A stretch of 64,000 nt of DNA from Labedella phragmitis (GTDB lineage Bacteria > Actinomycetota > Actinomycetes > Actinomycetales > Microbacteriaceae), in assembly GCF_004078635.1 (NCBI RefSeq), contig NZ_RZNB01000001.1:868001-932000 (forward strand), in the 5' to 3' direction. The notes beneath the pieces are model-generated. The model did not search any database. It was not told the DNA's origin and was given only the letters and a program-made list of their open reading frames with translations. Below, in pieces: positions 31,005 to 33,185 of this stretch (positions are counted from its first letter, which is position 1; the number at the start of each line of letters is the position of its first letter). The position numbers and the translations under genes are program-made.

Positions 31005-32294
31005 TCAATCGGCGACACGCGCCGCGATGTCCGTGCGGTGCTGGGAGCCCTCGAGTCCGATGAGGTCGACGGCTTCGTACGCCCGCGAGCGGGCAGTGGC
31101 GAAGTCGTCTCCCACCGCGACGACACTGAGGACGCGACCGCCCGTCGCGATCAGGCCGCCGTCCCCGTCGGCGGTCGCGGCGTGTGCGATGTGCACGCCT
31201 TCTACGGCGGAGGCCGCGTCGAGACCCGTGATCGGGCGACCCGTCACCGGCGTGCCCGGGTAGTTCTCGCTCGCCACGACGACCGTCACGGCCGCCGAGG
31301 GTGAGAACGCGGGCGGCTCGATCGATCCGAGAGTGCCCGTGGCTGCGGCGTAGAGCAGTTGAGAGAGCGGAGAGATGAGACGCGGCAGGACGACCTGCGT
31401 CTCGGGGTCCCCGAAGCGCGCGTTGAACTCGATCACACGGATGCCGCGATCACCCTCGCGGTCCCGCTTGCTCGTGAGGATGAGCCCCGCGTACAGCAGA
31501 CCGATGAAGGGCGTCTGCTCATCGGCGAGTTGCCGGACGACCGGTCGCGCGATGGTGTCGGTGACCTCGCGGACGAAATCGTCCTCCGATCCGAAGTCCT
31601 CGTCGAGCCAGGGAAGCGGCGAGTACGCACCCATCCCGCCCGTGTTGGGGCCGGTGTCGCCGTCACCCGCCCGCTTGAAGTCCTGCGCGGGGGAGAGGGG
31701 GACGACCGTGTGGCCGTCGCTCACGAAGAAGAGGGACACCTCCTGGCCGTCGAGGAACTCCTCGACGAGGACGCTCCCGGCTCCGAGGAACGACTGAGCG
31801 TGGTCGACGGCCGCCGCGCGGTCGTCGGTGACGATGACGCCCTTGCCCGCTGCGAGTCCGTCGGCCTTCACCACGTATGGCGGTCCGAAGTAGTCGAGGG
31901 CCGATTCGACCTCGGCGGACGTACCGGCACGCACCGCCCGGCCCGTCGGCACCCCCGCCTCCTCCATGATGTGCTTCGCGAACGACTTCGATCCCTCGAG
32001 TTCCGCGGCCTCGCGACCGGGCCCGAAGACGGCGATGCCCTGTTCGCGCAACTCGTCGGCCACGCCGGCCACGAGGGGGGCCTCCGGTCCGATCACCACG
32101 AGCTCGACGCCTTCGGCGATCGCGTGGTTTGCCACGGCGACGGGGTCGTTCGCATCGAGGGCGACCACCGGGACGGACGCTGCGATGCCCGCGTTCCCGG
32201 GGGCGACGACGATGTCGTGGTCGGTCGTCTCCGCGAGGAGCGAGAGGACGATGGCGTGCTCGCGCGCGCCGGAGCCGAGGACGAGGATCTTCAC
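31005..32294 (-). CDS. purD: Phosphoribosylamine-glycine ligase
   Basis: 429 aa ATP-grasp enzyme making GAR, step two of purine synthesis. Landmarks: [13 protein letters not shown] at the N-terminus, the ATP-grasp region [28 protein letters not shown] and [13 protein letters not shown]. The start is placed at GTG 32294, since TAGGCT lies 7 nt upstream and no ribosome site is seen; an in-frame ATG at 32315 would overlap the divergent gene's start. Only 19 bp separate it from the sterol-carrier gene. Confidence 0.96.
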
Positions 32295-32313
32295 GGCCAC
32301 TAGCCTATTGGTC
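32295..32313. promoter_or_regulatory. 19-bp bidirectional leaderless promoter, purD / sterol-carrier gene
   Basis: The whole intergenic space is 19 bp. On the plus strand TAGCCT (32301-32306) is 7 nt from ATG 32314; on the minus strand TAGGCT (32307-32302) is 7 nt from GTG 32294. The overlapping -10 boxes are almost mirror images, with equal spacing to both starts. Confidence 0.65.
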
Positions 32314-32676
32314 ATGGCTCGAGCACGGATCGCTGACGGTGATGGCCTCGCGGCGATCGCGAAGGCCGAAGCGGGGGACGCCGATCGGGCGGTCCTGGCG
32401 ACGGCCGTCCGCTACACGCTTCAGCACCTCGCGGACATCGCCCCCGGCCACACCGTCGAGGTGAGGGTTCCCCCGTTCGCGGCTGTCCAGTGCGTGGAGG
32501 GCCCGCGGCATACGCGCGGCACGCCGCCCAATGTCGTCGAGATGGATGCCGTGACGTGGCTCGCCCTCGCTCGTGGGACACTCGGCTGGTCAGAAGCCCG
32601 TGCCGCCGGCTCCGTTCACGCCTCCGGTTCGCGCGCCGACCTCAGCATGCTGCTTCCGCTCCGTCTCCCACTCTGA
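32314..32676 (+). CDS. Sterol carrier family protein (actinobacterial SCP2-like)
   Basis: 120 aa. The pattern [48 protein letters not shown] with a later [11 protein letters not shown] segment is the small actinobacterial sterol-carrier-like (SCP2 fold) family that is widely found beside purD/purM. Function is unknown; a lipid-binding or MSMEG-type maturation role is only a family guess. Leaderless start at ATG 32314 sharing a promoter with purD. Confidence 0.82.
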
Positions 32677-32744: not shown

Positions 32745-32756
32745 GACAATGGACTC
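32745..32756 (+). promoter_or_regulatory. Leaderless-type -10 box of the small membrane protein-purM unit
   Basis: GACAAT (32745-32750) plus 6 nt leads to GTG at 32757. The arrangement and even the following GG match the purC start region. Confidence 0.5.
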
Positions 32757-33185
32757 GTGAGTCTCGAACAGCCCTCCCCGGTCGATCCGCAGGACGCGGA
32801 CCCGATCCGCGAGCGCGTCACGGTCCGGCGGGCGCCGAAGGTGTGGGGCTTCCTCGCCCTCGGAGCGATCATCGGTGTGGTCGCAGCGCTCGTGCTCACC
32901 TTCGCCTTCCGCCCGGCCGACGGCGGTCCGACCGTCACGGAGGACGGGACGGCCTTCGGTCTCACCCAGGTCTTCGGCTTCCTGCTCGTGTGCCTCGTCC
33001 CGATCGGCGCCGCGCTCGGAGCGCTCGCCGCGATCGTCCTCGACAGGGTGCTGTCCCGCCGGGCCGTCGAGGTCGACGTCGATAGGATCGACGTGGCCGC
33101 GGCTCCCGACCTCCCCGGTGATCGCGACACGACCGACGACCTCCCATCCGACGCCACGCCGAACGAGGACTCTCCACGATCATGA
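32757..33185 (+). CDS. Small two-TM membrane protein upstream of purM
   Basis: 142 aa. Two TM helices (WGFLALGAIIGVVAALVLTF and FGFLLVCLVPIGAALGALAA) flank a short Asp/Gly-rich extracytoplasmic loop; both ends are charged and acidic at the C-terminus. Similar proteins are found next to purM in Microbacteriaceae and are sometimes labelled Trk-related, without evidence that I can see. The stop overlaps the purM ATG (ATGA), so expression is coupled to purine synthesis. Function unknown. Confidence 0.75.
   Translation: MSLEQPSPVDPQDADPIRERVTVRRAPKVWGFLALGAIIGVVAALVLTFAFRPADGGPTVTEDGTAFGLTQVFGFLLVCLVPIGAALGALAAIVLDRVLSRRAVEVDVDRIDVAAAPDLPGDRDTTDDLPSDATPNEDSPRS

Follow-up and report, generated by a model that had tools for sequence, protein, structure and literature searches.

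Bidirectional promoters form a class of bacterial promoters in which divergent transcription starts lie 7-25 bp apart on opposite strands. Work by Warman et al. from 2021 reportedly concerns bacterial promoters of this class with a shared -10.

The geometry of such promoters is described in two later papers. Among divergent start distances, 18 bp is given as the commonest, with 10 and 23 bp also common, and small shifts in distance are attributed to the spacing between the -10 and the start (Warman et al., 2026; PMC12825309). Reciprocal pairing of -11A and -7T is named as one of two reasons for the distance of 18 bp (Middlemiss et al., 2023; PMC10268837). As reported, opposing polymerases cannot simultaneously occupy a bidirectional promoter; all five tested E. 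coli bidirectional promoters had a basal activity too low for competition, and interference was seen in this species once one direction had been activated (PMC12825309). The word "leaderless" does not occur in the main texts of PMC10268837 and PMC12825309.

Actinobacterial leaderless genes, the second point of comparison, are described as having a TANNNT some 12 bp ahead of their start codons (PMC3160421; PMC3898074). In Mycobacterium tuberculosis, about a quarter of the genes with a primary start are reported to be leaderless, no conserved -35 is reported, and closely juxtaposed divergent promoters are called common in a legend (PMC3898074). The same source contains the divergent pair prpD/Rv1129c, both members of which are leaderless and which could possibly have a shared -10. 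Judged by titles and abstract openings, in a coverage that leaves out most subscription journals, no treatment of leaderless bidirectional promoters in bacteria was found.

The locus described here lies in a stretch of 64,000 nucleotides of Labedella phragmitis DNA (the window), which sits in a 3.52 Mb genome. A nearly palindromic promoter appears to fill the 19 bp between the start codons of purD and a gene of the SCP_3 family, and the features to which the text refers are the following.

31005 to 32294, minus strand: purD (phosphoribosylamine-glycine ligase), GTG start with first base 32294; predicted to be leaderless, with the RNA start at or next to 32294
32295 to 32313, no strand: GGCCACTAGCCTATTGGTC, the entire spacer separating the start codons; 19/19 identical in three congeneric genomes
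32301 to 32307, no strand: TAGCCTA, an odd palindrome (TANNNTA) that contains the two -10 hexamers with a 5-bp overlap
32301 to 32306, plus strand: SCP_3 -10 hexamer TAGCCT, ending 7 nt before the ATG
32302 to 32307, minus strand: purD -10 hexamer TAGGCT, ending 7 nt before the GTG
32313 to 32315, minus strand: in-frame upstream ATG, part of CATG, which would lengthen purD by 7 codons; judged unused
32314 to 32676, plus strand: SCP_3-family gene (120 aa), ATG with first base 32314; predicted to be leaderless, with the RNA start at or next to 32314

The spacer is flanked by TCAC on one side (the purD GTG, read on the minus strand) and by ATGGC, the SCP_3 start, on the other, and it contains CTAGCCTA at 32300-32307. 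The purD product has three Pfam GARS domains, and the product of the plus-strand gene matches SCP_3 (PF17844, E 7.9e-44). The coordinates agree with a sequence-only reading of the locus, in which purD and a sterol-carrier gene start 19 bp apart and a single block gives TAGCCT and TAGGCT, each 7 nt from its own start codon.

Like the published bidirectional promoters, as far as these are described in the sources cited, the purD/SCP_3 spacer has a near-symmetric -10 that can be read on both strands, with reciprocal pairing of -11A and -7T by the two overlapping hexamers: base pairs 32302 and 32306 are the A and the last T of the plus-strand hexamer, and the last T and the A of the minus-strand hexamer, respectively. 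Unlike the Salmonella and E. coli systems as described there, both RNAs are predicted to be leaderless, with start codons at the two transcription starts, and the promoter makes up the entire intergenic region and is conserved across genera for a single gene pair. With actinobacterial leaderless genes as reported, purD and SCP_3 share a TANNNT at 6-8 nt and, as in M. tuberculosis, the lack of a recognisable -35; they differ in being two genes at one -10.

With good confidence, we read the 19 bp as a conserved bidirectional promoter with one shared -10 that would drive two leaderless genes, probably through the housekeeping sigma factor. The -10 core ANNNT reads as ANNNT on the opposite strand too, and the purD -10, which on the plus strand is ANNNTA, needs just one T in front of it to yield TANNNTA and thus a complete -10 in either direction. 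In the proposed mechanism, polymerase would use this element both ways. RNA polymerase would bind in one of two orientations, opening the same few base pairs each time, and RNA would begin at, or directly beside, the first base of either the purD GTG or the SCP_3 ATG, thus giving two leaderless mRNAs. The sequences themselves show the geometry, its selective conservation and a leaderless-type purD -10 in all junctions sampled, while the transcription start points, the sigma factor and the alternating use by polymerase are inferred.

The comparison with relatives is based on SCP_3 loci from several sources: named genome contigs (the best 80 of 224), 299 genomes drawn from the family (matches in 291; 30 loci taken), and further loci from 60 junction regions retrieved by coordinates and from a genus search (4/4 genomes). 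SCP starts were placed by tblastn anchoring. The 175 loci yielded 138 with purD upstream and 120 distinct junctions, 37/175 having been dropped because no purD was found upstream in the available DNA. Rows were chosen by similarity to the window's SCP_3 protein and by genus, and are therefore non-random; one part of the junction sampling was aimed partly at genera already known to be compact. The junction of the Labedella populi record (L003) is identical to that of the congener G165 (L084).

A TANNNT stands 6-8 nt before purD in all 120 junctions, with a gap of 6 nt in 82 of them, 7 nt in 37 and 8 nt in one. Because the same motif occurs at 7/3000 background positions, taken 20-44 nt upstream of SCP starts, the leaderless-type purD -10 can be called a fixture of the sampled junctions. 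For SCP_3, an own TANNNT at a gap of 6-7 nt is found in 21/22 compact junctions, defined by an SCP start 17-19 bp from purD, and in 70/98 non-compact ones; in the other 28/98, no TANNNT stands 6-7 nt before the assigned SCP start. In several relatives, GAGG precedes the SCP ATG by one or two nt, a distance that seems too short for a Shine-Dalgarno sequence. As a separate observation, a leaderless-type TANNNT in 120/120 junctions is an unusual degree of constancy for a core biosynthetic gene.

The 22 compact junctions among the 120 belong to seven genus codes and have spacers of 17 bp (3), 18 bp (7) or 19 bp (12). TANNNTA is present in 21 of them, representing six genus codes, and in these 21 the spacer length follows from the two gaps, with 17 = 6+6, 18 = 7+6 and 19 = 7+7. 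If RNA starts at the start codons, the implied distances between divergent starts are 18 bp (3), 19 bp (7) and 20 bp (12 compact rows); the window, at 20 bp, is explained by its 7-nt gaps. In two further junctions, L007 (Leucobacter salsicius) and L184, the spacer is 22 bp long and the two -10s have only TA in common, implying 23 bp. The implied 18 bp of relatives with 17-bp spacers, the 19 and 20 bp of the other compact rows and the 23 bp of the two junctions with 22-bp spacers would lie close to the published classes of 18 and 23 bp, given small shifts, and would agree with the reciprocal -7T/-11A pairing.

The seventh genus code is that of L138, which has an 18-bp spacer with CACAATA and lacks the T of the plus-strand hexamer; L138 indicates that compactness does not strictly require TANNNTA. 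Its purD retains TATTGT, and its plus-strand hexamer is CACAAT, so that this junction offers a test case for the need for T at the first position. L148, in turn, retains CTAGCCTATTGG upstream of purD though its assigned SCP start is 86 bp distant, and this sequence may be left over from an earlier compact arrangement.

On a purD tree of 119 rows (L095 left out), 17 compact rows from four genus codes form one clade (support 98/89), three compact rows from one genus plus a single row from a second sit in an adjacent clade (96/88) together with longer-spaced rows, and L138 stands apart from the other compact rows. The compact state needs four changes on this tree. Since the longer-spaced relatives mostly have a separate SCP_3 -10, the sharing of the -10 appears to have been gained or lost along with spacer length.

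The base that distinguishes a two-way from a one-way -10 is T32301, which is needed by the plus-strand hexamer alone. It is present in 21/22 compact rows vs 6/97 others (Fisher p 5e-17, a value that lacks correction for kinship and is hence too optimistic). In three independent pairs on starred branches, T goes in the same direction in a mean of 1.8/3, which is not significant, the pairs being too few.

These counts bear on the possibility that purD alone uses the -10, SCP_3 being transcribed from a promoter inside purD or otherwise, and that the plus-strand TANNNT is a by-product of symmetry. ANNNT is indeed self-symmetric, the extra T occurs in those six non-compact rows with no SCP start nearby, and L138 is compact without it. 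We nevertheless regard this explanation as unlikely, given the excess of the T in compact rows and its invariance throughout the 17-row clade, as well as the position of the plus-strand TANNNT, which lies 6-7 nt before SCP_3 just as the gene's own -10 does in most non-compact junctions. Moreover, no Shine-Dalgarno sequence at the usual distance was seen in the 20 nt upstream of either start, by eye and in the window.

The shared promoter is further supported by rates of change, which are better evidence than the Fisher test and point to selective conservation of the heptamer. Across the 17 rows of the main clade, the heptamer's seven columns changed once in total, at an N position (TAGCCTA to TACCCTA in L176), which leaves both -10s intact, whereas 70 fourfold purD columns in the same clade have a mean of 5.1 changes, and 1/70 is unchanged; even the slower early codons of purD have a mean of 2.75. 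Other spacer columns varied, the second, for example, with seven changes. Among the three congeners, the fully identical spacer stands beside fourfold identities of 0.50-0.53 in purD and 0.40-0.55 in SCP_3. The sequence-only reading had offered conservation of the 19 bp in relatives as one test that could refute it; the heptamer rates, the congeners and the compact junctions all show the spacer to be conserved, and geometry and conservation together uphold a shared -10 from which, on either strand, the start codon lies as far as in leaderless genes.

Some invariant columns lie outside the heptamer, namely the two bases (AC) that precede it, the third base that follows it, and the last spacer column, unchanged in the 12 clade rows that have that column. 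These extra columns are not accounted for by two -10s alone, and our confidence in the shared promoter is slightly lowered because of them. They could fit a binding site for a purine regulator, acting instead of or besides a promoter, as could a palindromic block beside a purine gene; three of the extra columns stay constant through all 17 rows. We consider such a site very improbable, as L176 has changed an N position with both -10s kept, and elsewhere in the family purD uses a TANNNT that is not part of a palindrome, though a regulator that shared the -10 would be conceivable.

The purD start codon is GTG in 112/120 junctions and ATG in 8/120, and in the window the GTG at 32294 is preferred to the in-frame ATG that lies 21 nt further upstream, because the alignment with solved PurD chains begins at residue 2 of the protein as read from the GTG, stops lie upstream in relatives, and the ATG is out of frame at spacers of 17 or 18 bp. 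That purD is instead translated from the ATG at 32315, so that the genes overlap head to head and the 19 bp are partly coding, is hardly credible: an open frame from this ATG is present in the window and CATG yields an ATG on both strands, but an in-frame stop lies within four codons upstream of the purD start in 72/120 junctions, chain residue 2 of 2xcl, 2ip4 and 2yw2 is where the alignment begins, no TANNNT occurs on the ATG's strand within the next 60 nt upstream, and the conserved columns follow one another directly, not at codon intervals.

Downstream of SCP_3, the next gene (membrane-like by eye) has a possible GTG start at 32757 with GACAAT 6 nt upstream (32745-32759), a weaker leaderless-type signal. 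Because this gene may own such a signal, SCP_3 perhaps does not form one transcript with the downstream genes, which were read by eye as purM and purF.

It had further been proposed that each -35 lies inside the coding region of the other gene, and this part was not borne out. The best matches to TTGACA inside the neighbouring genes are 3/6 and 1/6, which is ordinary for the window, where most random places give 2-3. Pairwise fourfold identity is not raised in the first 11 codons of purD (0.454 vs 0.471 for the rest, 171 compact pairs) or at the start of the SCP_3 gene (0.355 vs 0.461, 231 compact pairs). Pointing the other way, 21/24 fourfold sites in the first 11 purD codons are identical within the genus. 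On the tree, early purD codons of the main compact clade do change more slowly than those elsewhere in the gene (2.75 vs 5.21 changes per site, p 0.0009), and this slowing was weighed as a trace of an SCP_3 -35. It was rejected as such, since similar slowing occurs in non-compact groups: 2.00 vs 5.14 in the group of Microbacterium and others and 1.78 vs 3.20 in a 12-row clade, with a weak effect (2.38 vs 3.39) and none (1.75 vs 1.74) in the other two. The slow early codons thus belong to the purD start generally. A conserved -35 inside the neighbouring genes was rejected likewise, there being no signal special to compact genomes.

A survey of divergent gene pairs covered 158 sampled pairs in 1.26 Mb from three genomes, called with a home-made gene caller that had been loosened after an earlier version missed the purD/SCP_3 locus. 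The samples from the window's own genome and from G108 contained purD/SCP_3 by design, and the regular sampling grid of G017 covered the locus by chance. The double -10 was found in 3/158 pairs, all of them purD/SCP_3, once per genome. The 143 control motifs gave a mean of 0.15, and two reached three matches; for CT...CT, all three are purD/SCP_3, and for AG...AT, two of three. No case of the 23-bp class occurred in the 158 pairs. A genome-wide class of double -10 promoters was therefore rejected, purD/SCP_3 alone having the arrangement in the sample; on these 1.26 Mb, the double -10 is a conserved trait peculiar to one gene pair and not a common plan. At 889 candidate starts of the genes in divergent pairs, TANNNT peaks at gaps of 6 nt (61) and 7 nt (23); a gap of 8 nt accounts for 10, and none of the remaining gaps between 2 and 24 nt for more than 6. 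Because of these peaks at 6 and 7, the survey supports the view that leaderless starts are common in this group.

For polymerase traffic, the sequence-only reading had gone as far as mutual exclusion of the two polymerases. Steric exclusion is indeed to be expected from what is reported for bidirectional promoters, and that part stands; strong competition is not implied, as basal firing in the E. coli cases was too low for it (PMC12825309).

Very likely, the purD/SCP_3 promoter is a clean example of a known two-way kind and not a new mechanism. Its twist would be that both RNAs are leaderless and that the promoter fills all of the intergenic space. It thereby offers a minimal, naturally conserved bidirectional promoter with apparently no untranslated regions and no recognisable -35s, leaving only the shared -10 between the genes, and the overlap of the hexamers in five of six bases permits a sharp test of bases that act in both directions and of polymerase competition. 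The gene pair also provides a comparative series across a bacterial family, from shared through TA-shared to separate -10s. Tentatively, and with more doubt than belief, start-codon spacing might reveal promoter geometry directly in the genome, and spacer length might evolve together with the sharing of the -10 as the fixed -10 of purD captures or releases its neighbour. The steps of capture and release would then be set by the geometry of the polymerase, with a shared -10 at 18-20 bp, a shared TA at 23 bp and separate elements at longer distances. If this is true, purD and SCP_3 would be an obligately coupled gene pair, in bacteria rich in leaderless genes, without any regulator.
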